29,607 nt of DNA from a virus, in IMG/VR virus record IMGVR_UViG_3300009149_000188, positions 1-29,607 of that record; one strand, given 5' to 3'. Positions 3,231-25,858 of the stretch are shown here, in pieces. Below the pieces are notes generated by a model. That model did not search any database, had not been told where the DNA came from, and worked only from the letters and a program-made list of their open reading frames with translations. The position numbers and the translations under genes are program-made. How positions within the stretch are numbered: the first letter of the stretch is position 1; every line of letters starts with the position of its first letter.

Positions 3231-4249
3231 AATCTACCTTTGATTAATACGGTTGTCGGGGAATAAATTCTTTTACGTTTGACCTGTTCGCCTACTGTCC
3301 AGTAGTCCTGAGTACGGAGCATTTTGTCTTGAGCTGCGATATAGTTATCACTTCTAACTATATCTGAAAATCTTACTTCATTAATTACTTCAGCCCGTGT
3401 AGTACCAAAATTAGTTTTACCAATCCACGTTTCCTGTGCATAGTATGTTATTCCACCTGCAAGAGTATCAGTGTCCTTACTTACCGCATTAATCCACATT
3501 TCCTGACTGCCGTTGGTATAAGTTATCGTTGCATAATAAGTGGTATTTGCCGCTATTGTAGTACCAGTTAGAGATTTAGCTACCCCTGCATCATTAAAAC
3601 CAAAATACAAATAAGCACCAGAACCGTACCTCAAATGTTGAGCGTAGTAGGGTACTGCATGAGAAGTAAAATCATAACTCCATAGGTGGCGCCAGTTTGC
3701 AAGTATGGCAGGGGTTGTAAAAACAAACTCTAAAGTAAATGTTTGTTTGTTAAATGTCCCTGTACCGTCTGCGAGTACCGTAATATAATCATTAGTATCA
3801 AAACTTTGTGCAAGTCCTATAGACCCCGCTGCTTCAATAGGTTCATTAGCACCCTTTTTAGTTAGATCTACATTGTTGGAGGTACTATCCAAAATAGTAG
3901 AGGTAGTTTCATCTTTCATGTGATAAGCAGATACATAGTTAGCATCCCATACACCCGTCTTATCTTCGGTCGATGTATCACCGCCATAATAGACTTCAAT
4001 ATAATCTGTATTGGTTGCTGCAATGTTAAGGCACTTGACGAAATAATAAGACTTTGCCCCAGCGTTAAACTCTGCACATTCCCATGACAAACGTGTACCG
4101 TCTGAATCGTGGAATGAGATAGCGTCATAAGTGTCTAGTCCTGGATAAGCACCTGAGGTATCATCTATAATGACAAGGGCAGGGAAGTTGGTAAATATCT
4201 CAAAATCACCATTGGCTGCTGTAAGTTGTCTGCGATATGTAAAACTCAT
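3227..4249 (-). CDS. DUF2341 / LamG-like tail adhesin
   Basis: A 340-residue protein. Residues 1-110 have the DUF2341 pattern: opening YRRQLT, a middle SFHDSDGTRLSWE, then YYFVKCLNI and IEVYYGG. Residues about 115-300 look like a concanavalin/laminin-G jelly roll, with VSAYHMKD, DYITV, FTLEFVF, YYATITYTNGSQEMWING-like strands and a conserved EVRFSDIVRSDNYI near the end. DUF2341 followed by LamG is common in secreted and phage tail proteins that bind glycans. It lies between Dit and Tal-like genes, overlapping each by 4 nt, so it is very probably part of the tail tip and a candidate receptor-binding protein. The ligand cannot be read from sequence. Confidence 0.75.
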   Translation of the reverse strand: MSFTYRRQLTAANGDFEIFTNFPALVIIDDTSGAYPGLDTYDAISFHDSDGTRLSWECAEFNAGAKSYYFVKCLNIAATNTDYIEVYYGGDTSTEDKTGVWDANYVSAYHMKDETTSTILDSTSNNVDLTKKGANEPIEAAGSIGLAQSFDTNDYITVLADGTGTFNKQTFTLEFVFTTPAILANWRHLWSYDFTSHAVPYYAQHLRYGSGAYLYFGFNDAGVAKSLTGTTIAANTTYYATITYTNGSQEMWINAVSKDTDTLAGGITYYAQETWIGKTNFGTTRAEVINEVRFSDIVRSDNYIAAQDKMLRTQDYWTVGEQVKRKRIYSPTTVLIKGRL

Positions 4250-5025: not shown

Positions 5026-6824
5026 GCTAGCCTTGCCCTTGTATTCTGCATATTATAAAGTTCTGTTGCTATCCTGCCTACGTCTGCTTCTTCACGTACT
5101 ACCATTTCACCTATGGAGAAGTTATTTACAATACCCCCTCCGCTCATATCAAGCCCTGCAAATGAGGGCAGGTTTTGTTTTATGGCTCTGGTTACTGCTG
5201 CCGGGAGTATGGTCTCACCGCCTAAGAAGCCTACCTTTAAATCAGGGGCGTATTGCGGATAACCCACCGAACCGCCTGAAGCTCGGCCAGTGCTTATATA
5301 ACCGCTGTTGGTTACAAAGAAATCCTCATGTCTTGAAATAATGGTATGAGTAGATGTAATATTTGTACCCTGTAAGGCATTGATTCTTTCCTGAAAGGTG
5401 TTTATGTCTGAATCTAAATTACCAAAGTTAGCAGCGATACTGCCCGCCATTTCATTAAATTCTTTTTCAACATTACCAGTAGATGATACGGTCTCACGTT
5501 CCATGAATGTAGTAACGGTATCCCATGTACTTTTAAGTTCATTATAATTTTCAACGGTCATATCCTTGAAAGCAGATATAGTAAAATCTAGTGCATTAAA
5601 TTGTTCCTCACCCTCTCTGCCTGCTGATATAAACCACGTACCTAAAGCACCTAAAAATTCTATTGCTATGGATATCGAATTGGTTATTATACCAACTATA
5701 AAATATATACTGTCTGCAATGCCTTTTGTTACTGCCATAGCAGTTGCAAGCGTTTCCATACCCTCACCGATATTATTGATAAATTCCTGGTATTTTACAT
5801 CTGCGCCAGTAACACCTGAACTTGAATCTCCTATTACTATCCCAAAGGCAGTACCCATCTCCTGCAACCCTTTATTGATTGCTGAATAATCAGCCTCTTT
5901 TATTATTCTTATAAATGCTTCTATCTTTGTAAATGTCTCGCTCGCAAGGCTAACAATATTATCCCAATTAAGGTCAAGCCACCTACCCATATTATCGGCA
6001 GCCTCACCTACCCATGTCTTTATCCTTTCAAGTGGGGATTCTAAATTCGTAACAGCTCCCGTAAATGGGTCGACTACTTCCTTACCCTTTACAAACCATT
6101 CCATAAGATTGGTAAGCGTAGGGATAAGAGCAAATCCTACATCTTCTTTTATATCCCCAAATACATTTTTCATTTGTTCTAACTTACCTGCGTAAGTCTC
6201 TGCTGCTGACTGTGCCTGTCCAGAGAACTTATCATTTAAAGCATCCAGCACTACACTAAATCCCTCGGCTGCATATTTATCCTGGTCGATTATAATACCA
6301 TATCTTGATAGGGTCCCTGTCTCCCCTGCTATTGCTTTACCAACCAAGATAGCCGCTGCGTTTAAATCCATATCCATAGCAGATGCCATATCAAGAACTG
6401 CCATAGTAGCATCTTTAATAACATCTTCAGATGCTCCAAATGTGGCAAGCATAGATTCTACTCCAATAATAGTTTCATCACCGTATGTCGTAACTTTCTG
6501 GAGTTCGGCTGCATATTCGTTTAAGCGTTTCGCTGCTCCCTCGGTATGTATGCCAGCAGTCTCTAGTGCAGTGGCCAATTTCTTTTCTGCTGCCTCCTGG
6601 ACTCCTGCTAACTTGATACTTTCCTTAGTGAAATCAATAACCTTCCCCATAGCAGCCCCTAAAGCATCAAAGGCTTTCTTTGCCAGAAACAATGCACCTC
6701 CGGCAAGTGCCATCTTCTTTAGAGTAGAACCCAAATTCCCCATAGCGGTGTCAGCCCTTTTAGATGCGTCAACTGCACCCCTGGGATCTCCGTCTATATT
6801 TATTTCCATCCGTTTAGTCGCCAT
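5016..6824 (-). CDS. Tail tape measure protein
   Basis: A 602-residue, mostly helical protein with the usual start of tape measure proteins: KRADTAMGNLGSTLKKMALAGG, then AKKAFDALGAAMGKVIDFTK. Next comes the conserved core with EYAAELQKVTTYGDETI, MLATFGASEDVIKDAT and AGETGTLSRYGIIID. Hydrophobic segments occur in the middle (FIVGIITNSISIAIEFLGAL). The protein spans the tail lumen and sets tail length; at about 1.5 angstroms per residue, 602 residues suggest a tail of about 90 nm. It starts at ATG 6824, overlapping the end of the frameshifted chaperone frame by 11 nt, which is the classical arrangement. I see no lysozyme or peptidase domain. Confidence 0.9.
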   Translation of the reverse strand: MATKRMEINIDGDPRGAVDASKRADTAMGNLGSTLKKMALAGGALFLAKKAFDALGAAMGKVIDFTKESIKLAGVQEAAEKKLATALETAGIHTEGAAKRLNEYAAELQKVTTYGDETIIGVESMLATFGASEDVIKDATMAVLDMASAMDMDLNAAAILVGKAIAGETGTLSRYGIIIDQDKYAAEGFSVVLDALNDKFSGQAQSAAETYAGKLEQMKNVFGDIKEDVGFALIPTLTNLMEWFVKGKEVVDPFTGAVTNLESPLERIKTWVGEAADNMGRWLDLNWDNIVSLASETFTKIEAFIRIIKEADYSAINKGLQEMGTAFGIVIGDSSSGVTGADVKYQEFINNIGEGMETLATAMAVTKGIADSIYFIVGIITNSISIAIEFLGALGTWFISAGREGEEQFNALDFTISAFKDMTVENYNELKSTWDTVTTFMERETVSSTGNVEKEFNEMAGSIAANFGNLDSDINTFQERINALQGTNITSTHTIISRHEDFFVTNSGYISTGRASGGSVGYPQYAPDLKVGFLGGETILPAAVTRAIKQNLPSFAGLDMSGGGIVNNFSIGEMVVREEADVGRIATELYNMQNTRARLAWV

Positions 6825-8960: not shown

Positions 8961-9330
8961 TTATAACCTTCTCCAGTTCTTCTTCATAAATCCTCTCAAC
9001 TTCAGGCTCGCTCTCTTCAGCCATTTTAAAGAAGTAGTGTTTCGGCTTTATATAGACTGAACCGCCACGGCCAGCCCTGCCTCCTTCATCCTGTATGTGT
9101 GCATAAGGCTGTGATAAGAACTGCCCTGCTACCAGCATATTGCTAGAATATAAAGCCTTTATTTCCCTTTTAAGAGTACCTGTCTTATATGGTGCTTTAT
9201 CGATAGCTCTTCTCTGCCATAACTCCAGCATCCTCTTAGCGGCTCTCTGCTTAAAGCTCTCGTACAGCGACGGGTAGTTATTAAAGTACCTCTGGTAATC
9301 TGAACTAAATTGATAGGATATGCTTATCAT
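8953..9330 (-). CDS. HK97 gp10-like head-tail joining / tail completion protein
   Basis: A 125-residue protein with the clear HK97-gp10 pattern. It has a helical start with KRMLELWQRRAIDKAPYKTGTL (the KAP--TG-L phrase is the family hallmark), then a middle strand, PYAHIQDEGG, and YIKPKHYFFKMAEE. These proteins complete the junction between neck and tail. It overlaps the connector gene by 4 nt (ATGA), so the two are translationally coupled. The gene order connector, gp10-like, terminator, tube matches HK97 and many related phages. Confidence 0.85.
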   Translation of the reverse strand: MISISYQFSSDYQRYFNNYPSLYESFKQRAAKRMLELWQRRAIDKAPYKTGTLKREIKALYSSNMLVAGQFLSQPYAHIQDEGGRAGRGGSVYIKPKHYFFKMAEESEPEVERIYEEELEKVING

Positions 9331-9911
9331 ACCGAACCGAACTCCACTCTTTTATATTTGCCTAAGATTGCTTTTACATCAGGGGGCATATATCCTTTTG
9401 CCAGATTCACATAAGCCCCTTCTTCAAACCTCTGGGAGTAATCCACTATCTCGCCTTTATAGACTGCGGCAACCCATTTCTTTAAAGCTAAAGCCAGTGG
9501 CCGGGGTACGTTTGCCCTTGCTGCCCCATAGCCTGCCTTATAGACTATATCAATGTTTTTAAATCCACCGTTAAACTTGTATCCGTACAGTTGTATATAT
9601 CCTTCTTTTAGATAGACAAAATAATCAGTATTTTCCGTGCCTGCCGATATGTCATCTATGGCAAGGCTCGTAACTGACACTATAGGCTTATGGTCGACAA
9701 ACAGCGTAGTAGTGCCATCACCGTCATAGGATTCTGTATAGGTCTTATCTATTATCTGGTCAAGTGAAAGTTCCTCTGATAACAAAGCGCAGATATCATC
9801 CAGCAGATAGATAAGCTCTGCGTCCATAGATGTATCATTGTCGTCCGATATATTTAAGTGGCTCCGCATCTCTGCTAGAGTTACTATTGTTTTATCCTGT
9901 ACATCTGTCAT
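9327..9911 (-). CDS. Head-tail connector protein (gp6-like)
   Basis: A 194-residue protein with an N-terminal helical bundle (VTLAEMRSHLNI, then DAELIYLLDDICALLSEEL), a beta insert with DGDGTTTLFVDHKPIVSV, and a C-terminal helix with NVPRPLALALKKWVAAVYKG. This is the layout of HK97 gp6/SPP1 gp15-type adaptors, which form a ring below the portal. The beta insert with VDHKPI followed by VTSL is typical of the longer versions. It is the first structural gene after the glycosylation-type cassette and starts directly after that cassette's last stop codon, so the cassette interrupts the usual capsid-connector adjacency. Confidence 0.8.
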   Translation of the reverse strand: MTDVQDKTIVTLAEMRSHLNISDDNDTSMDAELIYLLDDICALLSEELSLDQIIDKTYTESYDGDGTTTLFVDHKPIVSVTSLAIDDISAGTENTDYFVYLKEGYIQLYGYKFNGGFKNIDIVYKAGYGAARANVPRPLALALKKWVAAVYKGEIVDYSQRFEEGAYVNLAKGYMPPDVKAILGKYKRVEFGSV

Positions 9912-11591
9912 TTAATTCTCCTTTATAAATAAATCAGGTCTGACTGCTAAAAGATGTTTTGCATGTATCCCCAATATTATCTTTATTTCATCTTGCACGA
10001 ATGTTCCGACCTTTGAATAATTATAAGGTTTTTTCCCCTTGTATTTTATATAGACATTATCGGTATCAATTATCTTTTTAGGAGGTTCACTTTTGATATC
10101 TGTTTTTAATACCATTTTATATCTAGGCGCCGGTACATCATTTTCTACAAATTCAGGTTTGACGGTATCTTTAATACTTTCCCATTGCGCCCTGGCTTCC
10201 TTATTATAAGTTTCAATATCTATCCCCAACTCGTCAAATGCTATATGCCCATAGTGATGGACATAGGCATCTTTAACCCAGTAAGACTTACATTTACCCA
10301 GTATCTTGGCTCGCCATATCCATTCCCGTTCTTCGGTACATCCCAGCTTAAATTTTTTGTAATCGAATCCTCCAGCTATATCAAACAGTTCTTTCCGAGT
10401 TACAAAACAAAACCCCATTACATCGTAATGGATACAATCTCCTGACAGTCTATCAGCTACAGCATTTATTTCCTCTACAGACATCTTATATCTTTGATTG
10501 GTAAGCGCCCTTATGCATTGATTTCCTCCACAAAGGGAAGTAGAGGGACCTGTTATACCGCAATCCTTTTTATTCCTGAATGGGAACATGAGCTTGTCCA
10601 GCCAGCCCGGAGTTACTACAGTATCGGAGTTTAGAAAACATATATAGTCAGAACTCGCTATCTTTATAGCCTGATTACATCCATAAGGGAATCCCTTATT
10701 CTCTTTATTCTTTATGAGCTTTAAATCAAATTGCTTTAGGCTTTCAAGATATCCCTTAGTAGCTTCTCCTGCCCCGTTATCTACTACTATAAGCTCATAG
10801 TTAGAAGTATTTTTATAAAGCGAATTAAAGCACTTCTTTATATATTCAAGCTCATTTCTCACCAATACTATTATCGATACTTTTGGATGGCCTTTAAATT
10901 TATATTTTGTATTCTGTAATGCCGACCCCATACTGCCTATCATGTGTCCATCGTGTGGTGTCCGCAGGAAATAATCATTCTTATGGATATCACCCTGTAG
11001 CACCTGAGGTTTTATCTTCAGGTTATGCAGTACATAATTAAAACTTAACTGATCCCTTTTGGAATGCCTGCATATTTCAGCCCACCACCAATTATTGATC
11101 CTTTCTATTTTCTTAGTATGCTTTCGTAGTATTATGGTACATTCAAACAGCCCGTTATTTTTAGGATAATTCCTTTCCTTGTAAACCGACATCTGCTCAA
11201 GTATCACTTCATTGCTATCTAAGTTCTGCCTTATACATATATCTGCTTCCTCGTATATGCCGTTCCTTTTCTGAAAATGCCCAAAGACCGCAATATCATC
11301 TCTCTTGAGATATTTTTTTATAAGCTCAACAGGCGAACATATAAGGTTGATATTTCCATCTATCCATATACTGTAATCGTAATCCCCGACATATTGATGT
11401 GACAGGACTTTGTGTATCTTTGCATTCCTGTTAGCGTCAGTAAACAGATTACATGCAGGCTTTATCGTCCAGGTATCAGAGGCTATCTCCCCGTTATCGG
11501 TAAAACATATATAATCGCTGCCATCATCAAACTGGTCATCTTTTAATGTGTCCTTTGCCCCCGTTATTGCTGTGTAGACAACAACATTCAT
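9912..11591 (-). CDS. Two-domain glycosyltransferase-type protein (DUF616-like + GT2)
   Basis: A 559-residue protein in three parts. Residues 1-220 resemble the DUF616/TOD1-type glycosyltransferase fold, with YTAITGAKDTLKDD at the start, DYICFTDN, YDYSIWIDGN at 71-80 and NNGLFEC. Residues 237-475 are a GT2 (GT-A fold) domain, with VSIIVLVRNE, ELIVVDNGAGE, NKGFPYGCNQAI, the metal-binding NSDT at 321-324, and GGFDYKKF followed by acidic EERE. Residues about 513-559 (YKGKKPYNY, then HAKHLLAVRPDLF) resemble a short phage structural domain rather than an enzyme. The protein probably transfers sugars from nucleotide donors, but donor and acceptor are unknown. It overlaps the methyltransferase gene by 4 nt. 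Confidence 0.75.
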   Translation of the reverse strand: MNVVVYTAITGAKDTLKDDQFDDGSDYICFTDNGEIASDTWTIKPACNLFTDANRNAKIHKVLSHQYVGDYDYSIWIDGNINLICSPVELIKKYLKRDDIAVFGHFQKRNGIYEEADICIRQNLDSNEVILEQMSVYKERNYPKNNGLFECTIILRKHTKKIERINNWWWAEICRHSKRDQLSFNYVLHNLKIKPQVLQGDIHKNDYFLRTPHDGHMIGSMGSALQNTKYKFKGHPKVSIIVLVRNELEYIKKCFNSLYKNTSNYELIVVDNGAGEATKGYLESLKQFDLKLIKNKENKGFPYGCNQAIKIASSDYICFLNSDTVVTPGWLDKLMFPFRNKKDCGITGPSTSLCGGNQCIRALTNQRYKMSVEEINAVADRLSGDCIHYDVMGFCFVTRKELFDIAGGFDYKKFKLGCTEEREWIWRAKILGKCKSYWVKDAYVHHYGHIAFDELGIDIETYNKEARAQWESIKDTVKPEFVENDVPAPRYKMVLKTDIKSEPPKKIIDTDNVYIKYKGKKPYNYSKVGTFVQDEIKIILGIHAKHLLAVRPDLFIKEN

Positions 11592-12040
11592 TGTACGTCC
11601 TTTTCTACAATCAAGGTTGAAACTAATTCATTATTCTGTTTTTCAAGTATTTTGATTTTAAACCTGCATAGCCCTGCAAGTCCTTTTAATATCCCGTTAA
11701 TCCTTGCTTCATTCCATAAACTTAAATGACAGGCAAAGTACGCTTCGGTATTATCTGAATGTGGAGTCCTTATATCTATCTCGGTCCCGTTCTTTGAAAT
11801 CCTATGAAGCTCGATAAATAAATCCCCTATGTCCCTGTTCTCTAAATGTTCTAAAAAGTGGCTACAGTAAATTCCGCTTACAGAATTATCAAGGAAAGGC
11901 AATCCGCCCCTCACATCCCAGACGATCTCTTGTCCAAAGTTAAGGATATCCAATCCGATATATCCGGCTTTCTTTTTATCCTTACACCCTACATCCAGAT
12001 AGATCGGCTTAGTACCATCATATTTTATTTTTCTTAACAC
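11588..12040 (-). CDS. SAM-dependent methyltransferase (class I, COG4627-like)
   Basis: A short class I methyltransferase. Motif I is YLDVGCKDKK followed by YIGLDI; the next region is WDVRGGLPFLDNSVSGIYC and then SHFLEHLENRDI, the acidic/SHxLEH phrase seen in Methyltransf_11 and COG4627 proteins that sit among sugar-transfer genes. The target is likely a sugar or sugar-linked group, inferred from its neighbours. I prefer the GTG at 12040 because GGGGAAG lies seven bases upstream. A TTG at 12067 would add nine residues and deepen the overlap with the FkbM gene to 50 nt. It ends in an ATGA overlap with the large glycosyltransferase gene. Confidence 0.7.
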   Translation of the reverse strand: MLRKIKYDGTKPIYLDVGCKDKKKAGYIGLDILNFGQEIVWDVRGGLPFLDNSVSGIYCSHFLEHLENRDIGDLFIELHRISKNGTEIDIRTPHSDNTEAYFACHLSLWNEARINGILKGLAGLCRFKIKILEKQNNELVSTLIVEKDVQ

Positions 12041-12695
12041 CCTGTAACTTCCCCAGTCTTTTGCCAAAATGCCATGTTACCTCAAATCCGCAATCCTCAA
12101 GATGATTTACAAGGCCGTCATTCTTGCTTCCGTCATGTAGTTCACAGACTATCTTTTCAACCTTATCCAATTTAGAACTCTCAAGTATCCTGTATTCAGC
12201 CCCCTCGCAATCAAGTTTTATTAGCTTTACCCAGAGATAATCTTTAAGAATATCATCAAGTGTCGTGATCTCTACAAGTTCAGATCCGCCAATACCGTTG
12301 TCTATGCAATCTTCTATCAGGCTATGGCTTCCGGGATTAGTCTTATCCTTGTATAGCAAAGCAGTTCCCCTCGTATCTGATACTGCGGTATTATAGGCTG
12401 ATATTATATTCCCAAATTCATTAGCTTCTATATTCTTTTTTAGTATTGCAAAGTTTTTAGGCTCTGGTTCAAAGGACAGTACCGTAGCTTTCCTGATTGC
12501 GCATTCGATAGAAAATGCCCCTATATGCGCCCCTATGTCGATTACGATATCCCCGTACTCAAATACACCGAACCCTTTATCAAGATAAAAGTTCCTTACC
12601 CTGACATCATCTATTATTTCAGTGTCGTTCGTTCCGGGCCTTATGTAAAATTTAGCAGGCTGCCCGTTATAATTTTTAGTTTCAATCAATTCCAT
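12018..12695 (-). CDS. FkbM-family methyltransferase
   Basis: FkbM-type methyltransferases usually O-methylate sugars or polyketide-like hydroxyls. Motif I is VIDIGAHIGAFSIE at 51-64, followed by VLSFEPEPKNF at 72-82, NTAVSD at 102-107, and the family signature WVKLIKLDCEGAE at 155-167. The ATG at 12695 is chosen because AGGAGGCG lies four bases upstream. A longer frame to 12779 would overlap the upstream gene by 98 nt and adds an unlikely Arg-rich leader. The overlap with the upstream glycosyltransferase gene is 14 nt. Its place between sugar-transfer genes suggests capping or decorating a glycan by methylation. Confidence 0.85.
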   Translation of the reverse strand: MELIETKNYNGQPAKFYIRPGTNDTEIIDDVRVRNFYLDKGFGVFEYGDIVIDIGAHIGAFSIECAIRKATVLSFEPEPKNFAILKKNIEANEFGNIISAYNTAVSDTRGTALLYKDKTNPGSHSLIEDCIDNGIGGSELVEITTLDDILKDYLWVKLIKLDCEGAEYRILESSKLDKVEKIVCELHDGSKNDGLVNHLEDCGFEVTWHFGKRLGKLQGVKKNKI

Positions 12696-13437
12696 CAAAC
12701 GCCTCCTTATGCCAATTCCTAAAATTATCCCATGTATGTACTGACAGTAAATCCTTCCTTTGTGAAACCTTATCCTCAAGTTGTTTTAGCTTATGTACCA
12801 AAACATCGTAACTTTCATAGATAATATCGTCCTCATCTTTTAGGTCTACCATAAACCCGATGTCTCTTGAGATAACCGGGATGTTTAAACTCTTAGCATT
12901 TAAGACATCCATTGGGCCACCCTCCGCTGTCGAGGTTATAAGCAGATAATCAATATCATCAAAAAAGTTATCTGATACTATGCCAAAACCTAGCTTCCAA
13001 TCCTTTATAAAAACAAACTCAAAGATATCTTTATTAAGTTCAACATACAGCCTGGCGATTATACCCTGTCCTTTTCTTCCTGTGCCGTAAGGCCTACCAG
13101 ATACGCCTAGCCTTATTTTTCTCTGCTCTACCAATATACCGAATCCTCCGATTACCCGTATCTTATCTTCTGGTACTAAATTGCGGATAAGCTCTTTCCT
13201 ACCGTGATCTGACATACAGAAAATATAATCAGCCTTATCTAAAATAGTCCTATCGCTTAACTCGTCAAAATGTGTAAAGAAAACTATATCCATGTTAGAC
13301 TTTTGACAGCCGTTAAAATGCTTCCAGTAAATCCAGTTTATGTAGTAGGTAATATCTGTTTCAGGCAAATCTGCTTTTAAAAGTTCTTTGCCGATCTTCT
13401 CAAGTATCCAGTCATCATTCGGATATACTACTTTCAA
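12682..13437 (-). CDS. Glycosyltransferase-like protein (GT4/GT-B C-terminal half)
   Basis: A 251-residue protein with GT-B features. The first half has DIVFFTHFDEL and ADYIFCMSDHGRKELI (a GT4-like CxS phrase before a helix), then IRLGVSGRPYGTGRKGQ as the linker strand and nucleotide-sugar loop. The second half has LLITSTAEGGPMDVLNAKSL and NIPVISRDIGF, matching the GT4 EGxxxxxxEA helix, although the second glutamate is Asn here. The protein is short for GT4 (usually 350-400), so the acceptor domain is reduced. The start is TTG at 13437, on a TTGA overlap with the upstream gene, with GGGAGG eight bases before it. Activity is likely but unproven given the changed residue. Confidence 0.65.
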   Translation of the reverse strand: MKVVYPNDDWILEKIGKELLKADLPETDITYYINWIYWKHFNGCQKSNMDIVFFTHFDELSDRTILDKADYIFCMSDHGRKELIRNLVPEDKIRVIGGFGILVEQRKIRLGVSGRPYGTGRKGQGIIARLYVELNKDIFEFVFIKDWKLGFGIVSDNFFDDIDYLLITSTAEGGPMDVLNAKSLNIPVISRDIGFMVDLKDEDDIIYESYDVLVHKLKQLEDKVSQRKDLLSVHTWDNFRNWHKEAFDGID

Positions 13438-14552
13438 GCGTAGACCCTCCCATTCTTTACTATCGATAATGTATTAGGTTTACGTCTTGGCCCTTTACGT
13501 GCTATGGCCTGCTGTAGAATACGCTCATACTTAGACCAGTGATCCTTTATATTCCGTCTATCCCTGACATACTCAAAAGCCTTTTCCGCAATCTCTTTGC
13601 GCTTCTTTGGCCTATCGATTAAATACTTCAATCCCTCATACCATTTATTATCTGTTACCAGTACCCCTGTCTCTTTATCAGTTACCGTATGATAGGTTGA
13701 GACCTTAGATATAACAGCCGGGACCTTAAGCCTTGAATACTCTAAAAACTTTATATCACTCTTGGCCCGATTAAACTCATTATCAAGCAGTGGTATTATC
13801 CCTATATCCCAGTCCATAAACAGCGGATATTCGTAAAGCTCAAAAAACCCTGCCATTTTGTTGAGTTCCCTGTTACCGTGTTTAGAAGATTCGATATACT
13901 CTACCCTGTCATGTATGATATCCCCTGAATGGAAACCTACAAATTTAAACTTAACTGCAGGGTACTCATCCAGTATCTTTAAAATTGCATCTTTGGCAAT
14001 CAGTACATCCGGCCTGTGGGACTGGCTCCCCATAAATCCTATTACAATACCCTCATGTTTCTTCTTCTCTACATCCCACCGTGGGCTGTCAAAGTCCAGT
14101 TGGTTCATAAAGGTAACAGCAGGCTTGTTAAACTTGCCCCCGTAATAATCCGATAGATACTTAGTAGAACATATAAATCCGTCTGCCTTATTCCATAAAT
14201 ACGACCTCTGTAACCAGACATCTTTAGCCCTGTTGCCGGAAGCCTTATTTATCCAGTCGGTAGTCTTATCTGCCATATCGTCTGCTTCTATTAATACAGG
14301 GATATTGGCAAAGTTACTCCACTCCAGAATAGGCTCAAGCCCCATCTTAGCAGGCATCTCCATAACCACCACATCAGCGGACTTTAGATATCGTTCAGAC
14401 ATATCGTGAAATTTCTTCTGGTCTCTGAAAGTCTTTCTAAGTCCTGCCATAGTAACAACGGGTATGCCGTTCTTTATAAGCTCATTATTAGGTAATATCA
14501 TCCTGTAGTAGCCTGATGCACTATCTACCATTTCAAAGAACATTACTTTCAA
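13434..14552 (-). CDS. Glycosyltransferase (GT-B fold, GT4-like)
   Basis: A 372-residue protein of normal GT4 length. The N-terminal domain has MFFEMVDSASGYYRMILP at the start and VLIEADDMADK at 86-96. The C-terminal Rossmann domain begins near GIVIGFMGSQSHRPD (168-182), followed by FKFVGFH, DWDIGIIPLLDNEFNRAKSD and KFLEYSRLKVPAVIS (268-282), where E271 sits in the nucleotide-sugar helix. A final WSKYERIL helix is typical. TTG at 14552 is the likely start because AGGAGG lies six bases upstream; the next ATG (14543) would be too far away. It overlaps the Cys-rich gene by 20 nt. The sugar donor is unknown. Confidence 0.8.
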   Translation of the reverse strand: MKVMFFEMVDSASGYYRMILPNNELIKNGIPVVTMAGLRKTFRDQKKFHDMSERYLKSADVVVMEMPAKMGLEPILEWSNFANIPVLIEADDMADKTTDWINKASGNRAKDVWLQRSYLWNKADGFICSTKYLSDYYGGKFNKPAVTFMNQLDFDSPRWDVEKKKHEGIVIGFMGSQSHRPDVLIAKDAILKILDEYPAVKFKFVGFHSGDIIHDRVEYIESSKHGNRELNKMAGFFELYEYPLFMDWDIGIIPLLDNEFNRAKSDIKFLEYSRLKVPAVISKVSTYHTVTDKETGVLVTDNKWYEGLKYLIDRPKKRKEIAEKAFEYVRDRRNIKDHWSKYERILQQAIARKGPRRKPNTLSIVKNGRVYA

Positions 14553-14922
14553 GTTCCGCCTCCTTGATATAAAAATGAAAATGTTTCATAAGCTCCGGCA
14601 TATCATACTGGTAGATACAATCCTTGCCGAATAAGTTCCTGCATTGAAGCTGTACCCAGAGTAGACAGGTATCACAATCTACCATACCTGAATGTCTTTT
14701 CCAGATGACCATAGGCCCATTATCGGACTTAACAATCTTCCACTTCTCGCTATCATGGTATATGTCTTTAGATTTTAGCTTCTCGCAGATAGAACAATTA
14801 TCTGTTACGGCCTCCACCACGGCCACCGCCTTGTCCACGTCCCGGCCCTCCGCTGGGGCAGGGGTTTGTATTCCTGTTTCCACCATTTCCTCCGCCTGAA
14901 CCATCTCTTCTACCCATTTCAT
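14533..14922 (-). CDS. Cys-rich hypothetical protein, possibly HIT-like
   Basis: The reading frame gives 129 residues. From about residue 43 it looks like a real folded domain: NCSICEKLKSKDIYHDSEKW, IVKSDN and VIWKRHSG, then DCDTCLLW, and near the end KHFHFYIKE. Two Cys pairs (CSIC, CDTC) suggest a metal site. A leading CxxC, a K-[RE]H-like strand and a late HxHx-type strand recall HIT-like folds, but the match is loose. The first 42 residues are acidic low-complexity sequence (EEMVQAEEMVETG) that overprints a Gly/Arg-rich frame. The SD lies only one base before this ATG, so the true start is uncertain. It immediately precedes the glycosyltransferase genes. Confidence 0.5.
   Translation of the reverse strand: MKWVEEMVQAEEMVETGIQTPAPAEGRDVDKAVAVVEAVTDNCSICEKLKSKDIYHDSEKWKIVKSDNGPMVIWKRHSGMVDCDTCLLWVQLQCRNLFGKDCIYQYDMPELMKHFHFYIKEAELESNVL
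14798..14917 (-). CDS. Gly/Arg-rich 39-residue ORF overprinting the Cys-rich gene
   Basis: An alternative frame opens with ATG at 14917, six bases after AGGAG (14928-14924), the best spacing available here. It reads MGRRDGSGGGNGGN, then PCPSGGPGRGQGGGRGGG and ends RNR before TAA at 14800-14798. The composition is about half glycine with many arginines, which explains the local GC rise. Short Gly/Arg-rich leaders followed by a Cys-rich zinc domain exist in bacterial and archaeal small proteins, so this could be the true N-terminal part or a separate peptide. Both overlapping frames are open; ribosome-site spacing favours this one. Confidence 0.45.
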   Translation of the reverse strand: MGRRDGSGGGNGGNRNTNPCPSGGPGRGQGGGRGGGRNR

Positions 14923-14935
14923 GCTCCTAATGTAA

Positions 14936-14994
14936 TTAGGGGAAGCAGGAGGCGTATCGAACTTCCCCTAAACCTAAATTAATAATCGCCTCCT
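14936..14994 (-). promoter_or_regulatory. Interleaved inverted repeats with orphan ribosome-binding site
   Basis: The 79-nt gap after the capsid gene holds two interleaved pairs. TTAGGGGAAG (14936-14945) pairs with CTTCCCCTAA (14962-14971), ten perfect base pairs. AGGAGGCG (14947-14954) pairs with CGCCTCCT (14987-14994), eight pairs. In the minus-strand RNA the second pair contains AAAAGGAGGCGATT, identical in style to real ribosome sites here, but no ATG, GTG or TTG follows at a useful distance (only ATT ATT). The pairs cannot easily coexist because one linker is a single base, so they look like alternative hairpins. There is no U-tract, so this is not a standard terminator. Confidence 0.5.
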
Positions 14995-15001
14995 TTTAAC
15001 T

Positions 15002-16423
15002 TTAAACTGTTACGTTATACCCAACAATTGTATGCGTTTGTGCGCTCAAGTCGCCCTGGTCTCCGTAACCTACGAAAGCAAACCTCATGGAAGCTACCAG
15101 TTTAAGTTCCTGTGTCTCGATATCCTTATCGGCTTCGATTAACAGTCTCCTACGATAGCCACCTCTCCAGCTTGGTTTATGGACCAGCACTATCTGTCCT
15201 TTGGTATTACTGCCTGAGCTATTGTCTACCCATCCGCTGGAATTGGCTTTAACCAGTTCCTCTGTAGGTATGCAGGCTATATTAAATATAGACCCTACCT
15301 CGCCAGTATGGATTGTAGCGCCAGCTCCGTAATCAGATACGCTTACCAGACCTGTCAGTCCTACCATCTTGGCATTTACATATGGGTCAAAGAACGCTAC
15401 CAGATTAGAGGTCATGGTATTGTACTTACCCATAAGGGCCAGCATGGTATTAAAGTCTGCTACTGCCAGCGTACCTAAGTCAGATGCCATGCTGGTATTA
15501 TCTACCAGTGCAGCATGACGCAGGCCGTTAAAGCAGAGTACCAAATCGCTAGTCGATATAGTACCGCCAGACAGGTTGATATTGGATGTACCAGTAGTGG
15601 TATCACCGTTAAGTATGGCATCATCGATTGCAGCTGCAGCCGATATGCCGATACTGTTCCTTATCTCACCAGCCATTGAAAGGATAGAATCTTCGTCTAT
15701 CTCATAAGTGAATATCATCTTACCAGCCATTTTGCAGGCATCCAGCCTTCCGTATCCAGTACCCAGGGCTGACCCTGTTATATTGGCATCCTCGGAAGTC
15801 TTGTAAAATGTTATGTCGCTTGTCTTTATCGGCAAGTCATAAGGCTGCGTAGGCATCTCGTCTATCCTGAACATCTGTGCTACTCTGGAAACTTTTACCC
15901 ACTCTTCCCAGAGCATGCTGTCCAAATCAGACGGTACCCATTCGTCCCCGGAGCCTGAACCTGTACTGGTCATGTTGGCTGCCTTTTCCAGTTCATCGGA
16001 TACCCTTATATCGGTAAGCCCTTTTCTACTGAAAGCCTCAACTGCCCTTTTTGCAAAGACTACATCGGACTGCTTTATCCCAGCAAACTTACCATGTTTA
16101 TGCTTAAAGTCATGTACGACTTTACCGCTCCCGTATGGGTTTATCTTGGTTAGTTTAACAGGGGCATAATCCTTTTCGTAATCTTCCTTATCTCTTCCTG
16201 ACGTATTGAAATTTACGGTCTTATTCTTTACAGGTTCTGTAAGTTTCTTAACCGCTTCATCTACTGTGGACTGGATTTTAGCAAGCAGGTCGTCATCTGA
16301 CTTATCCTCTTTCTTCTCTTCTTTGACTTCAAGTTTTTCCATTAACTCGTCAAACTCTTTCTGCTCGTCCTCGGTCAGTTCCCCAGTTTTCATTTTTTCT
16401 AAAAGTTCTTTTAATCTTTCCAT
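15002..16423 (-). CDS. Major capsid protein (HK97 fold) with N-terminal delta domain
   Basis: A 473-residue protein. Residues 1-65 are a charged coiled coil (MERLKELLEKMKTG, then EQKEFDELMEKLE and LLAKIQSTVDEAVKK), typical of the HK97 delta domain that acts as internal scaffold and is removed by the protease. Residues 66-150 form a Lys-rich linker. From TSTGSGSGDEWVPSDLDSM the HK97 fold is visible: LWEEWVKVSRVAQMF, DLPIKTSDITFYK, AAAAIDDAILNGD, then YVNAKMVGLTGLVS and a late beta region with VHKPSWRGGYRRRL. The start lies on a TAATG overlap with the protease gene, the usual protease-capsid order. It is the main shell protein. Confidence 0.9.
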   Translation of the reverse strand: MERLKELLEKMKTGELTEDEQKEFDELMEKLEVKEEKKEDKSDDDLLAKIQSTVDEAVKKLTEPVKNKTVNFNTSGRDKEDYEKDYAPVKLTKINPYGSGKVVHDFKHKHGKFAGIKQSDVVFAKRAVEAFSRKGLTDIRVSDELEKAANMTSTGSGSGDEWVPSDLDSMLWEEWVKVSRVAQMFRIDEMPTQPYDLPIKTSDITFYKTSEDANITGSALGTGYGRLDACKMAGKMIFTYEIDEDSILSMAGEIRNSIGISAAAAIDDAILNGDTTTGTSNINLSGGTISTSDLVLCFNGLRHAALVDNTSMASDLGTLAVADFNTMLALMGKYNTMTSNLVAFFDPYVNAKMVGLTGLVSVSDYGAGATIHTGEVGSIFNIACIPTEELVKANSSGWVDNSSGSNTKGQIVLVHKPSWRGGYRRRLLIEADKDIETQELKLVASMRFAFVGYGDQGDLSAQTHTIVGYNVTV

Positions 16424-17415
16424 TAAATCCTCTTTCCCGTTGCTTTATACAACGCTTCTTTTATTATCGTATCCACGCTATCAAGCATTTTAACCTTGCG
16501 GTCAGTATTAGCTTTAGACAACGCTTCAACACGTTCCGATAGTTTATTGATTGATTGAACCTTACGAAGCTGGATCGCTTCAAGTTCTTTGCCTATGGAA
16601 TTGAACTTCCCGGCAAGTAGTTCGTTAAGGACTTTCAGATCGTCTTCAGGTAGTTCCCTGTCAACTTTCTGCCAGTGCTTAACTATATCGGATATACTTA
16701 TAACATTATTTTTAAACCTTGTCAATTCCAGTATGTATTTCTCGTCCTCATTCCAGACGACATCCTTAAATTTTACGTCCTCTATATCCCCCTCGAATTC
16801 AGGCAGTTTCTTATCCAGCTTTTTGTAGTGCTTTGATAAGTGGTCAAAATCTTCCTGCCTCTTTTCTGAGAACCTGAATATATCAGCCATGTCTACTGCC
16901 AGCTTATCAAAATCAAGGTCTTTGTCATCATGCTTGAATGTGTCGTCTGGTTCACTCTCAAACATCTTGGCACCTGTAAGCCATGCCTGTTGGTTCATTG
17001 GTATTGATACAATCGATATCTCCCATAAGTCCAGTTTCTTCAGTACATTGGTATCCCCTACGGCTTCGCTGTCCTGTACCGAATACCCTATCGATAGCCC
17101 TTTAAGGTCATTGGATTTTATAAGCTCGAATGTGTCCTTACCCAGTGCTGTATTAGTATTTATCTTACCCTTTACTTCAAGCCCCTTATCGGTCTCTACA
17201 AGCCCTGTCCATTTGCCTATAGGCTTATCCATCTGGTGCGAGAACAGCATTACGGGATTATTCATAAAGGTTTCTATCGTGTCTGAAAATGCCCCGTACT
17301 GTATCTGGTCTCCGCCTAAGTCTTTATTCCACGTTGAGGCAATACCCTCAATCGTACCCTCGGTTTTCCCTTTAGTATGTAAGTCCGCTAAAAAGAATTT
17401 ATTTAGTTTTTTCAT
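16423..17415 (-). CDS. Prohead protease (HK97 family U35) with long C-terminal extension
   Basis: The first 150 residues match HK97-type prohead proteases: GTIEGIASTWNKDLGGD, VMLFSHQMDKPIGKW with catalytic His60, LKGLSIGYSV with catalytic Ser108, and LWEISIVSIPMN before the domain ends. The enzyme cleaves the capsid delta domain during maturation. The protein is 330 residues against about 180-220 for many relatives. The extra part, from about residue 150, is a charged helical region (KRQEDFDHLSKHYKKLDKKL, then KHWQKVDRELPEDDLKVL and SINKLSERVEALSK) that could serve as scaffold or as a protease-capsid contact. It ends on a TAATG overlap with the capsid gene. Confidence 0.85.
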   Translation of the reverse strand: MKKLNKFFLADLHTKGKTEGTIEGIASTWNKDLGGDQIQYGAFSDTIETFMNNPVMLFSHQMDKPIGKWTGLVETDKGLEVKGKINTNTALGKDTFELIKSNDLKGLSIGYSVQDSEAVGDTNVLKKLDLWEISIVSIPMNQQAWLTGAKMFESEPDDTFKHDDKDLDFDKLAVDMADIFRFSEKRQEDFDHLSKHYKKLDKKLPEFEGDIEDVKFKDVVWNEDEKYILELTRFKNNVISISDIVKHWQKVDRELPEDDLKVLNELLAGKFNSIGKELEAIQLRKVQSINKLSERVEALSKANTDRKVKMLDSVDTIIKEALYKATGKRI

Positions 17416-17423
17416 ATCCTCTC

Positions 17424-19439
17424 CTATTTATAAATTACACTGCATCTGCAATTGACATGATTAGGTTCATGCTCTACCCCGGTATTAAAACTTTCCTCTA
17501 TGGGAATCCAGCCTTGGCCTTCATTTGAGTAGCATATATCTGCCACCCTATCGTCCCCTACTGTAAGCCACCTTTTCTCTTTAATCCCGGTCTCCTGATA
17601 ATATCTATAACTACCCTCACCATAGGCATTGGCACATTCAGTACGTGCTATCCTCTCGGCCCTATAGGTAGAGTATTGTTTCCATTTATCCTTGATTTCC
17701 CTTGTAACTTCATTTACGGTTTTATGCTCATCAAATGCTGTGCTGAGTAGTTTCCGCAAGTCCTCCTTAGAGGTCTTATCTGACAGGCTGGTAAGTTTTT
17801 CCAGCATAGCCTCTTTTACCGGGGCGAGTTTCGGACTGTCTAAGTCAAATGGTATGTCCGTTTCCGAAAGCCTCCTTGCCGTATCTATCCCCACCATCAT
17901 CGACGCCCCTATAAAGTAAGCTGATATATCTGCTATCATTATTGAGAAGTTGCCCTTTGCCCATATCCTCTCAGCGTCCAAATTCTTGATAGGCTCATCC
18001 TGCTTTACTGTGTTTTCCTCTCTTACAAGGCTTGCTACTTTACTGCCCTGGTCTACAAACATATCTGATAGTGCGCTGTTGTAGTTTGCCCTTACCGTGT
18101 TAATGCCCTGCTCCCGTGTCTGGGCCAGTTTTACTGCTGCCTCAGTCTCTAATGACTTTTTTTTTAACGACTTCTCAACAGGAGTACTGCCTATTGCCAG
18201 CAGGTTGAATGGCATAAATCTTTTATCCCCTGCGCTATCACCTAAAGGCCAGCCCATCATCTCACTGCCCTGATTCGGGGATAGCATACCTAGACCTACT
18301 GCCTTTACAATACGCTCTAACTTCTGGTCAAGGCTTTCCTGCAATACCTCGATGCCTGAATAATCATAAGCTACCCTGTACTGGCCTCCCCAGACCGGCT
18401 GGATTAAAAACTCATTTACATAGCTTGAGATACGGCCCAGCTTTTTAGTCATCACATCAGTCCAGAAGATCTTCCTCTGGGCCTCTGCATTGGCATAGTT
18501 AGCATACTCGTATAGGTTTACCATAGCAGGGGGCATCCTGAATATTCCCAGTATTGTCTCACGGAAGTTCTTGAGCTGTTCGATAAAAGCAGAGTCTTTG
18601 GCTGACATCGCTATTGATTGATACTCAAGTCCGCCTGTCATTATGGCAGTCTTAAATGCCTGCTTCGGTCCTTTGTGCGCTTTCTCCCACCGCTTCTCTA
18701 TGCTCTTTATATCCGGCCGTGAGAGTAGCTGGTCAGTCTTTAAAAGTCCGCCTGGTCGTGAAGAGTTTGCAAAGAAGTTCTTCTGGTAAGTCTTAGCATA
18801 TATATCGGCTATTACCGTAGTACGGGCTGCAGCAATGGGGGATAGGCCATAGAAGTATGAACGGGGGTCGTATGTCTTTATGTGAAGTATCTCTTCTTTT
18901 TCAAAGTATTCTCTAGTGTTGCCATTGCTGAACTCATAACCTTTTACCATACCCTCTTTAGTGGGGATAACTGTCATCCAGTCCGGCCTTAAAAAGTACA
19001 GCTGTCTCGGTATCCCTAGAGTATCATAGACTATCCACCAGTAAGCGTTTCCCTGCAGGCTCAATGCTGATAGGGTAAGCTCCTTAAACTCTGCCTCGGT
19101 AGTCTGCTCATTTACCCTGTCAAACAGTTGGTATATCGGATGGTCAGTATCGGTTACCTTTTCCCATACCGTCTCACCTTTGATTTTCTTCTTTTCTTCA
19201 ACTATAAGGTCGACATCATTGGAGGCCTCTGCTATCGTATTGACGCAGATATATACCCACTCATTGGCGGTGTAGACTTTGCCGTATGTCTCGATATCAA
19301 CAGGCTTTTCAACGCCGTACTTTTCCTGCCACGGCTGTATGATGACATCGTTTATACGCTTTTCGACATCGGTATTCTGTTTGACTCTCCAGACATACCT
19401 GTCCAGAAAATCTATAAACTTATCTTGGAATATTGCCAT
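17424..19439 (-). CDS. Portal protein fused to Mu F-like minor head protein
   Basis: A 671-residue protein. Residues about 50-400 have HK97/SPP1-type portal features: YTANEWVYICVNTIAEA, LQGNAYWWIVYDTLGIP, LYFLRPDWMTVIP, YGLSPIAAARTTVIADIYAK, FFANSSRPGGLLKTD and FRMPPAMVNL. Residues 592-671 carry a Phage_Mu_F/SPP1 gp7-type end: YRAERIARTECANAYGEGSY, then WLTVGDDRVADICYSNEGQG and HEPNHVNCRCSVIYK, with the paired Cys of this domain. Fusing the two is less common than separate genes, although it is known. The portal ring is the DNA entry and exit gate; the Mu F-like part is a minor internal head protein. The start follows AAAGGAAG. Confidence 0.9.
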   Translation of the reverse strand: MAIFQDKFIDFLDRYVWRVKQNTDVEKRINDVIIQPWQEKYGVEKPVDIETYGKVYTANEWVYICVNTIAEASNDVDLIVEEKKKIKGETVWEKVTDTDHPIYQLFDRVNEQTTEAEFKELTLSALSLQGNAYWWIVYDTLGIPRQLYFLRPDWMTVIPTKEGMVKGYEFSNGNTREYFEKEEILHIKTYDPRSYFYGLSPIAAARTTVIADIYAKTYQKNFFANSSRPGGLLKTDQLLSRPDIKSIEKRWEKAHKGPKQAFKTAIMTGGLEYQSIAMSAKDSAFIEQLKNFRETILGIFRMPPAMVNLYEYANYANAEAQRKIFWTDVMTKKLGRISSYVNEFLIQPVWGGQYRVAYDYSGIEVLQESLDQKLERIVKAVGLGMLSPNQGSEMMGWPLGDSAGDKRFMPFNLLAIGSTPVEKSLKKKSLETEAAVKLAQTREQGINTVRANYNSALSDMFVDQGSKVASLVREENTVKQDEPIKNLDAERIWAKGNFSIMIADISAYFIGASMMVGIDTARRLSETDIPFDLDSPKLAPVKEAMLEKLTSLSDKTSKEDLRKLLSTAFDEHKTVNEVTREIKDKWKQYSTYRAERIARTECANAYGEGSYRYYQETGIKEKRWLTVGDDRVADICYSNEGQGWIPIEESFNTGVEHEPNHVNCRCSVIYK

Positions 19440-23325: not shown

Positions 23326-23607
23326 TCAAACTACTTCTCGCCCCCTTTTCCAGCGTCTACTTTTATTGGTTTTCCAATCTATCCATGTACATACACTTAC
23401 TATATCCCCCTCATATATCTCTTTAGAATTTTTATCGTGAAGTCCCGTGAATTGCATTAAAGCTAAACCTTCTTCTTCCCATTCACGTATATCTTCGTGG
23501 TAAACTGCCAATTCCCTTTTGGGTTCGCCTGAAAATTGGATAAAGCCGGGTTCAATAACCATAACCTCTTTATTTTTATCCCATACTCTAAATTTTATCT
23601 CTCTCAT
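23326..23607 (-). CDS. YopX-type protein, N-terminal part ended by TGA
   Basis: The start MREIKFRVWDKNKEVM and LALMQFTGLHDKNSKEIYEG, followed by DIVSV, are diagnostic of the YopX family, a common small phage protein of unknown function. As read with standard stops the product is 93 residues, ending RWKRGREVV, and lacks the C-terminal third. The gene begins on an ATGA overlap with the upstream 60-residue gene (EML then TGA). Codon TGA (23328-23326) replaces what in relatives is an ordinary residue between VV and FK. I cannot tell whether the shortened product is active. Confidence 0.8.
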   Translation of the reverse strand: MREIKFRVWDKNKEVMVIEPGFIQFSGEPKRELAVYHEDIREWEEEGLALMQFTGLHDKNSKEIYEGDIVSVCTWIDWKTNKSRRWKRGREVV

Positions 23608-23786
23608 AACATCTCCTTTACATCTCTCTTAAACTGCTCATAATCTTCTTCAGGTACGTTCTTTTCTACCTCTGCCATTATCTTCTCTTTATCCTCTGGG
23701 CATCGTTCTATCTCATCCAGCTTATCATCCAGGTAGGTAGTTATTTTGTCTTGTAGTGCGTAGCTTGGGGGGTAGAATGGGTCCAT
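23604..23786 (-). CDS. 60-residue acidic protein, paralogue B
   Basis: A small acidic helical protein: MDPFYPPSYALQDKITTYLD, then DEIERCPEDKEKIMAEVEKN and a tail ending in KEML. It is nearly identical to the protein at 24448-24630, differing mainly at both ends. It starts on a TAATG overlap with the preceding gene and stops on an ATGA overlap with the YopX-type gene. The function is unknown; I recognise no family. The repeated gene suggests duplication by recombination within this accessory region. Confidence 0.7.
   Translation of the reverse strand: MDPFYPPSYALQDKITTYLDDKLDEIERCPEDKEKIMAEVEKNVPEEDYEQFKRDVKEML
23665..23765. repeat. 101 bp perfect direct repeat, copy B
   Basis: This stretch is identical base for base to 24509-24609. 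It covers the central part of a 60-residue gene. Sequence on both sides differs by scattered changes, so the perfect block stands out from its more diverged flanks. Confidence 0.95.
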
Positions 23787-24293: not shown

Positions 24294-24451
24294 GATTGTT
24301 CCTTTTGAAAACTTATAATTTCGTGTAATTCTAGTTTGGTTTCATTGATAGCTTGATGTAATTCTTCGGACTTACTCCATATCTCATTACATTTATCATC
24401 AAGTCCTTTTATCGTGTCCATCAACCTTAATAGTTCTGGCTTAATACTCAT
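24290..24451 (-). CDS. 53-residue coiled-coil protein
   Basis: A short frame not obvious at first sight. It opens with ATG at 24451 in an ATGA overlap with the upstream 60-residue gene and ends with TGA at 24292-24290 in another ATGA overlap with the next gene. The translation starts MSIKPELLRLMDTIKG and continues CNEIWSKSEELHQAINETKL; it is one long amphipathic helix ending FQKEQS. Exact four-base overlaps at both ends and the GGAGAGATGTT ribosome region support translation. No known function. Confidence 0.7.
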   Translation of the reverse strand: MSIKPELLRLMDTIKGLDDKCNEIWSKSEELHQAINETKLELHEIISFQKEQS

Positions 24452-24630
24452 AACATCTCTCCTATATCTCTTTTAAATTCTTCATAATCATCTTCAGGTA
24501 CATTCTTCTCTACCTCTGCCATTATCTTCTCTTTATCCTCTGGGCATCGTTCTATCTCATCCAGCTTATCATCCAGGTAGGTAGTTATTTTGTCTTGTAG
24601 TGCGTAGCTCTTAGGGTAATATGTGTCCAT
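24448..24630 (-). CDS. 60-residue acidic protein, paralogue A
   Basis: The sister of the 60-residue gene at 23604-23786: MDTYYPKSYALQDKITTYLD, then the shared DEIERCPEDKEKIMAEVEKN and an end of IGEML. It lies just downstream of the radical SAM gene with eight bases between stop and start. Like its sister it ends in ATGTTATGAG, so the next gene starts on an ATGA overlap. Both copies keep intact frames, so both are probably expressed. Function unknown. Confidence 0.7.
   Translation of the reverse strand: MDTYYPKSYALQDKITTYLDDKLDEIERCPEDKEKIMAEVEKNVPEDDYEEFKRDIGEML
24509..24609. repeat. 101 bp perfect direct repeat, copy A
   Basis: Identical to 23665-23765 at every base, in the same orientation, 844 bp apart. 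It lies inside the paralogous 60-residue gene and is a possible site of homologous recombination that would delete four genes in between. Confidence 0.95.
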
Positions 24631-25511: not shown

Positions 25512-25858
25512 TCAACTCCCTCATTAATTAAATCTTGCATAATTGCCTCAACTATATTTTCAGGATAGCTTATACCGTAGCTTGTCATACGTTCCTGCAA
25601 GTACCATTCGTAAGTAAGGTTATATTTTAGTATCTCTATCATATCGGAGTAGGCTTGTTCGTGTGCCTGTAGCCTGATGTTTTCCAGCTTCTCGTCTGCA
25701 AGGTCTAAGCGTAAATCCTTGTTGGCTATCTCTAAAGCACCTAGTTGGAATGATAGGAGTTCTACCTGTTCTTTTAAGTCCTGGTTTACTGGATTGGTAC
25801 AGCCGGATAAAGAGAGTAGGATTAGGATTAATATTATTACTGATAGTTTATATTTCAT
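25508..25858 (-). CDS. Small lipoprotein with coiled coil
   Basis: A 116-residue protein with a lipoprotein signal: MKYKL, a hydrophobic run and SLSGC, with Cys20 as the lipid-modified residue. The mature part is a helical coiled coil (QDLKEQVELLSFQLGALEIA, then DLADEKLENIRLQAHEQAY). Phage lipoproteins serve as superinfection-exclusion proteins, spanins or membrane anchors, and no specific family is visible here. It is locked by ATGA overlaps between the metallophosphoesterase and radical SAM genes, far from the lysis genes, which argues against a spanin. Exclusion or a partner in the neighbouring system are guesses. Confidence 0.7.
   Translation of the reverse strand: MKYKLSVIILILILLSLSGCTNPVNQDLKEQVELLSFQLGALEIANKDLRLDLADEKLENIRLQAHEQAYSDMIEILKYNLTYEWYLQERMTSYGISYPENIVEAIMQDLINEGVE

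Follow-up and report, generated by a model that had tools for sequence, protein, structure and literature searches.

The virus record IMGVR_UViG_3300009149_000188, taken from IMG/VR and analysed here over its entire 29,607 bases (the window), carries a block of five glycosyltransferase and methyltransferase genes at positions 9,912 to 14,552, between its major capsid gene and its connector gene. It is suggested here that this block is probably a cassette for virion glycosylation that forms part of the head operon, with a methylated glycan as its product and with one of its enzymes docked on the head; the enzyme activities, the methylated glycan, the acceptor and the docking are what we infer. 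The five cassette genes would be translated together with the capsid, neck and tail genes, and as many as four glycosyltransferase domains (two GT4, DUF616 and GT2) could use host nucleotide sugars to assemble a short glycan, which the FkbM and COG4627-like enzymes would probably O-methylate. The acceptor would most likely be the capsid protein, if not some other protein of the head or tail, and the DUF616+GT2 enzyme would probably be held at the head or prohead by its C-terminal domain and glycosylate there. Head-module sugar cassettes and virion glycosylation are known already; what is new is the window lineage, how widely such cassettes recur in uncultivated phages, and an enzyme with a domain resembling a post-capsid protein.

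The coordinates and identities of the five genes had been proposed in an earlier note made from the sequence alone, and are borne out by Pfam and PHROG matches (Table 1). The curated Pfam cut-offs are passed by the FkbM gene (PF05050, 60.7 vs 22.7 bits) and by the DUF616 domain (PF04765, 87.8 vs 21.4 bits), and are failed by the short gene at 12682-13437 (PF00534, 21.4 vs 26.4 bits), which can be called GT4-like only. For the FkbM gene a TTG at 12779 is unnecessary as a start, because a Shine-Dalgarno sequence (AAGGAGG) stands six bases 5' of the ATG at 12695. The chaining by short overlaps described in the same note also stands: the reading frames overlap by 4-23 nt (TTGA, ATGA), and for most of the genes a Shine-Dalgarno sequence lies within the gene before, an arrangement which fits a single late transcript with coupled translation. 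No hydrophobic or membrane segment was found in any cassette protein (maximum Kyte-Doolittle 19-residue mean 1.40). The note had further placed the block "exactly between" the capsid and connector genes; it does lie between them, but not exactly, since on the capsid side a structured intergenic stretch of 80 nt, a Gly-rich open reading frame (ORF) of 39 residues and a conserved CxxC ORF intervene.

This placement is not due to chance, as the cassette recurs in a direct relative and in many other lineages. Scans of IMG/VR with the capsid, portal or glycosyltransferase protein singly gave no match, and alignments were required: a DUF616 alignment found 381 relatives, from which 80 loci were kept, and the 80 loci obtained with a GT4 alignment were almost all absent from the DUF616 set. 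A nine-sequence GT4 alignment was too divergent to be used in scanning. No prophage relative came up in two scans of GTDB genomes, and nothing closely matching the slot-type GT4 cassettes was present in the isolate collections. The direct relative, locus L043, has the gene order portal-MuF, S78, capsid, CxxC gene, radical S-adenosylmethionine (SAM), GT4, GT4-like+DUF616 protein and ATP-grasp gene. Identity between the window and L043 is 40-42% for the major capsid protein, 40% for the S78 protein, 48% for the C-terminal part of the portal and 52-53% for GT4 (L043 4605-5720), so that GT4 is conserved no less than the capsid protein.

The same slot is occupied behind unrelated heads (L033, L041/L042, L046, L015 and L076/L080/L081) and is also used in the podovirus-like MW202801, while in L110 the capsid gene is followed by a lone GT4 gene, the stop of which is overlapped by the start of the next gene, a phrog_442 adaptor (E 8e-29). 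When the capsid proteins of both samples were clustered at 50% identity, 23 lineages were obtained. In 18 of these the nearest sugar gene starts less than 2.5 kb from the capsid gene on the downstream side only, in one on the upstream side only and in one on both; in the remaining three it is upstream at 5-6 kb. The downstream bias is significant (binomial p 8e-5) within a count that is limited to the two families used as queries (DUF616 and GT4) and leaves out most DUF616 loci, many of them large or marine contigs, whose fetched flank had no capsid gene. One of the 18 downstream lineages, L142, has a connector-like gene between capsid and GT4. Phage glycosyltransferases had been expected in the earlier note to sit usually in accessory regions, which is untrue for these families in the sampled contigs with a nearby capsid gene, and capsid and connector genes to be normally neighbours, which is mistaken in that relatives usually have one small gene separating them. 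The note had also proposed looking for the same block in related phages; it was found in L043 and in other lineages, and the post-capsid position is common for these glycosyltransferase families. Other slot cassettes (L043 3487-4608, L015, L046, L080, L002) contain extra genes of the radical SAM, NodB-like deacetylase, PhyH, dehydrogenase and TupA-type ATP-grasp kinds. Since varied enzymes are thus added to the glycosyltransferases and methyltransferases, the glycans are probably diverse. Elsewhere in the sample (L029/L032, L135/L145, L120) glycosyltransferase or methyltransferase genes stand upstream of terminase or head genes.

The C-terminal 60 residues of the DUF616+GT2 protein are of particular relevance to the proposed docking. 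They are 50-53% identical between the window and L043, compared with 39% for the common DUF616 part, and the other enzyme domains of the two proteins differ. The domain ends at 9915 and the adaptor starts at 9911; that is, it is encoded between capsid and connector. AlphaFold confidently predicts a fold of four strands, a helix and a strand, with a predicted local distance difference test score (pLDDT) of 87. A search of the PDB with this model placed YqbF of Bacillus subtilis (2hjq), the N-terminal domain of which was the reference for this fold, at Foldseek rank 4, with a VIA-align Z of 5.5 and a root-mean-square deviation (rmsd) of 1.7 over 45 residues. The top rows from BFVD were small uncharacterised phage proteins and, when neighbours were assigned to genes by protein length, three of the four records checked had them directly 3' of the major capsid gene (Table 1). 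At the sequence level the domain had no Pfam match, a best PHROG E of 0.24 and no convincing PDB match, and the DNA pattern for AKHLLxxxPDxF was found in L043 and otherwise in chance matches only.

In capsid relatives that have no cassette (L099-L102, L105, L109), capsid and adaptor are separated by a small gene that stands alone. In L108, also a capsid relative, two other genes occupy the slot; in L046 a small ORF lies 3' of the cassette, directly before the connector. The strand and helix order of the L109 stand-alone protein is like that of the C-terminal domain, which is weak evidence. Because of the predicted fold, the neighbours 3' of capsid genes and the stand-alone gene in cassette-free relatives, it seems that a small post-capsid protein has been fused to a glycosyltransferase in the window phage. 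The gene yqbF lies between yqbE and yqbG, and the C-terminal domain of lambda gpFI is its head-binding part. Since the window domain seems to resemble a small protein of the capsid-connector interval (YqbF, perhaps lambda gpFI), the DUF616+GT2 enzyme probably docks on the head or prohead, and the fused domain is a plausible mechanism for this. PMC4493119 and PMC7889075 place TP901-1 ORF37 in the capsid-connector slot and link it to gpFI, which is thought to act via the major head protein.

Several points weigh against this interpretation of the block and of the domain. Two cassette proteins miss their Pfam cut-offs, the seeds used for capsid detection were partly drawn from slot examples, and sugar genes also lie upstream of TerL, portal or capsid in L171 and L119 as well as in the L029/L032, L135/L145 and L120 loci. 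The Foldseek E for YqbF is 0.5, and the match by itself is not decisive because GINS and ArsM domains tie with it (VIA-align Z 5.5). The C-terminal domain of gpFI aligns poorly with that of the enzyme (Z 4.8, rmsd 8.2), and no significant sequence relation of the domain to YqbF/gpFI-like proteins was found (hhalign probability 2%). The fourth BFVD neighbour checked, from VWB (131 residues), is not the product of a post-capsid gene, and the stand-alone protein of L109 gave a poor model (pLDDT 60) with no YqbF row and no phage match. In addition, TP901-1 survives the loss of its post-capsid protein (PMC4493119).

Decoration of virion proteins, as the earlier note had suggested, is partly supported: the modification itself is something we infer, and it is favoured by slot recurrence, GT4 conservation, the fused domain, the absence of membrane segments and the precedent of glycosylated mycobacteriophages. 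Going further, we tentatively raise the possibility that a phage glycosyltransferase captured a post-capsid head protein as a docking domain, tying glycosylation to head assembly, and that slot cassettes represent a decoration of virions with methylated glycans which is widespread in uncultivated tailed phages, far beyond mycobacteriophages.

The main rival to virion decoration, which we regard as unlikely, is that these late enzymes alter host capsule, lipopolysaccharide or wall glycans and so act against superinfection or re-adsorption to debris. Such a role has been proposed for glycosyltransferases between portal and capsid in gut Gratiaviridae (PMC8008677), and the mix of enzymes (GT2, GT4, DUF616 and methyltransferases here, with NodB-like, radical SAM and TupA-type ATP-grasp proteins in other phages) resembles that of bacterial surface-polysaccharide loci. 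The cassette lacks a flippase and codes for neither a polytopic membrane protein nor a membrane anchor, although soluble glycosyltransferases can act on lipid-linked glycans. O-antigen conversion of the GtrABC type depends on the membrane flippase GtrA and the polytopic GtrC, whereas the window cassette proteins are without a hydrophobic segment. Modification of the host surface also fails to account for the preferred slot or for the post-capsid-like domain fused to an enzyme, and late expression comes late for exclusion.

It is less probable still that the cassette is passenger cargo, the capsid-connector junction being merely a permissive site for late accessory genes with no common target. 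The contents are shuffled and vary widely across lineages, the cassette is dispensable for the lineage given its cassette-free capsid relatives, and the two other genes in the slot of L108 could be taken in the same way. Against this, the sampled loci carry mostly sugar chemistry (in a sample drawn with glycosyltransferase queries), GT4 matches the capsid gene in conservation, and the C-terminal domain is kept across different enzymes. Some phage glycosyltransferases glycosylate modified DNA bases (Pyle 2024 is cited in PMC12619734), and hypermodification of the phage DNA would thus be within their known abilities, but it is very improbable here, as none of the window genes examined could be recognised as coding for a base-modification enzyme, the cassette genes lie in the late head operon and not in a replication region, and a DNA target would have no need of a post-capsid-like domain.

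The interval between the capsid gene and the cassette contains elements of its own. The CxxC ORF, the first gene 3' of the capsid gene, contains CxxC pairs, is conserved in L043 (conserved part at 3261-3506) and had no family match in Pfam or PHROG; its product is possibly a zinc-binding partner of the cassette. It is overlapped in another frame by the 39-residue Gly/Arg/Asn-rich ORF (MGRRDGSGGGNGGNRNTNPCPSGGPGRGQGGGRGGGRNR; 14798-14917, minus strand), which has a good Shine-Dalgarno sequence and to which nothing in the L043 intergenic sequence was seen to correspond. The sequence between the capsid stop and the CxxC gene can form an H-type pseudoknot with an equivalent in L043, both with interleaved stems of 8 and 9-10 bp (8 and 10 bp in the window) and loops of 15-17, 7 and 1-2 nt; stem 2 shows two compensatory double changes between them (A-U to U-A). 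This topology occurred 19 times (at about nine distinct places) in 5.3 Mb of scanned strand, with 3.3 expected in shuffles, and four of the places are intergenic at a sugar-cassette boundary: the window, L043, the L080 lineage (6717-6783) and L002 (24442-24508). Rfam had no match in the window, pseudoknot included, and the minimum-energy fold of the capsid/CxxC intergenic region was unremarkable (z -0.5) in a folding program that cannot form pseudoknots. Our guess is that the pseudoknot is an intercistronic element affecting expression or mRNA stability 3' of the capsid gene. Programmed frameshifting from the capsid into the CxxC gene was considered and dropped, as the distance of the pseudoknot from the capsid stop is not the same in the two phages (about 11 nt vs about 30 nt) and no shared slippery site was seen.

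The convincing genes of the window are all on the minus strand, and no end repeats were found in the 29,607-base record. Their order is DnaB helicase, terminase, portal-MuF, S78 protease, HK97-type capsid, cassette, adaptor (phrog_442), gp10-like neck, tail tube, tape measure, Dit and a tail protein of prophage-endopeptidase type. The early region contains a nucleotidyltransferase of the RlaP type, a family of RNA repair pathways (26499-27185, minus strand; PF10127 E 5e-28), adjoined by a calcineurin-like phosphoesterase gene (25855-26502), and the two could form a tRNA/RNA repair pair. Also in the early region is a divergent radical-SAM-like protein (24639-25511, minus strand; PF04055 below cut-off) with a CxxxCxxC motif. 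Two near-identical ORFs of 60 residues (..YALQDKITTYLDDKLDEIERCPEDKEKIMAEVEKNVPE..; 23604-23786 and 24448-24630, minus strand) look like a recent duplication.

Table 1. Coordinates of window features, with the BFVD neighbours of the C-terminal domain.
Feature	Position	Strand	Match or location
YqbF-like domain, C-terminal 60 residues of DUF616+GT2 protein	9915..10094	-	50-53% identity to C-terminus of L043 5732-7543
DUF616 (TOD1/MUCI70) + GT2 bifunctional glycosyltransferase, 559 residues, with C-terminal post-capsid-protein-like domain	9912..11591	-	PF04765 E 1e-24; PF00535 E 5e-25; ATGA overlap with preceding gene
COG4627-like class-I SAM methyltransferase, ~150 residues	~11588..12040	-	PF08241 E 6e-4, just below cut-off; phrog_6636 E 1.2e-7
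FkbM-type methyltransferase, 225 residues	12018..12695	-	PF05050 E 2.6e-16; phrog_8156 E 1e-23 (longer frame)
Short GT4-like glycosyltransferase, 251 residues, TTG start	12682..13437	-	PF00534 E 2e-4, below cut-off; phrog_2170 E 4e-4; TTGA overlap with preceding GT4 gene
GT4-type glycosyltransferase, 372 residues, TTG start	13434..14552	-	PF13692 28.3 bits vs cut-off 27; phrog_7162 E 1.2e-30
Small CxxC ORF, first gene 3' of capsid gene	14533..14922 (conserved part ~14533-14796)	-	L043 3228-3506, 46% identity over 87 residues, E 1e-20
H-type RNA pseudoknot	14936..14994	-	Between capsid stop and CxxC gene; equivalent in L043 3192-3252
HK97-type major capsid protein, 5' neighbour of cassette	15002..16423	-	PF05065 over cut-off; phrog_10 E 6e-18
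Head-tail adaptor/connector, 3' neighbour of cassette	9327..9911	-	phrog_442 E 1.5e-16
S78 prohead protease	16423..17415	-	PF04586 E 9e-24
Portal-MuF fusion protein	17424..19439	-	phrog_2662 E 4e-99
Pantoea phage AAS23 gp08 (BFVD rank 3)			Between capsid and adaptor
Iodobacter phage PhiPLPE gp30 (BFVD rank 5)			Directly 3' of major capsid gene
Bacillus phage BboS-125 gene 73, BboS-125_00073 (BFVD rank 14)			Directly 3' of major capsid gene

In the literature considered, virion glycosylation has been demonstrated in a few mycobacteriophages only. Slot cassettes, which occur in about 18 capsid lineages, could serve as a simple marker by which candidate glycosylated phages are recognised from their genomes, and a glycosyltransferase with a head-protein-like domain suggests a testable mechanism by which such an enzyme might find its target. 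The closest parallel is in the cluster J mycobacteriophages (Omega, Thibault, BAKA and others), where an insertion of 8-10 genes with glycosyltransferases and methyltransferases lies between the major capsid and head-tail connector genes, and where the authors raised a viral vs a host target as a question (PMC3706429), one which cultured relatives would make directly testable. The slot, the chained glycosyltransferases and methyltransferases, the capsid gene upstream and the adaptor downstream are shared with the window, but the Thibault cassette, capsid and adaptor had no noteworthy phmmer match to the window proteins and are analogous, not homologous. The Thibault cassette also has a kinase gene, and no DUF616, no FkbM match above noise and no fused post-capsid-like domain were seen in it.

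Virions of Che8, Corndog and Myrna are glycosylated (Freeman et al. 2023, as cited in PMC12363180 and PMC11600133), and these two sources describe glycosylated capsid and tail tube in cluster O phages, with Corndog gp38 being required. Firecracker, of cluster O, has an O-methyltransferase and glycosyltransferases (gp33-36) between portal and capsid, inside the head module. The Che8 and Corndog types of system thus share with the window glycosyltransferase genes and a gene of O-methyltransferase type in or near the head module. They differ in position, which is between portal and protease in cluster O and near the genome 3' end in cluster F (PMC11256854) as against capsid-connector in the window, and in that their glycans have been shown; the hosts differ too.

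Outside the mycobacteriophages, the uncultivated podovirus-like phage ctQWt234 (MW202801) has after its capsid gene the series radical SAM, glycosyltransferase, PhyH, methyltransferase, NodB and glycosyltransferase, followed by a virion gene; its capsid and enzyme set are different from those of the window, and the clear common family is GT4 (26% identity). The cultured Cellulophaga phage phi12:1 likewise has a DUF616 glycosyltransferase and a methyltransferase-type gene in the head module, but here the sugar genes precede the capsid gene and are flanked by those for MuF and the protease; the glycosyltransferase gp41 of phi18:1, also cultured, lies in the structural module (PMC11946311). The YqbF and lambda gpFI-like post-capsid proteins are like the window domain in genomic position and may be so in predicted fold, whereas that domain is fused to a glycosyltransferase and its sequence similarity to them is not significant. 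Lastly, the flagellin locus of C. difficile has glycosyltransferase and methyltransferase genes directly 3' of fliC and co-transcribed with it (PMC5207246). Although its acceptor is a bacterial flagellin and unrelated, the modification genes stand there directly behind the gene of the modified protein, as may also be the case in the window.

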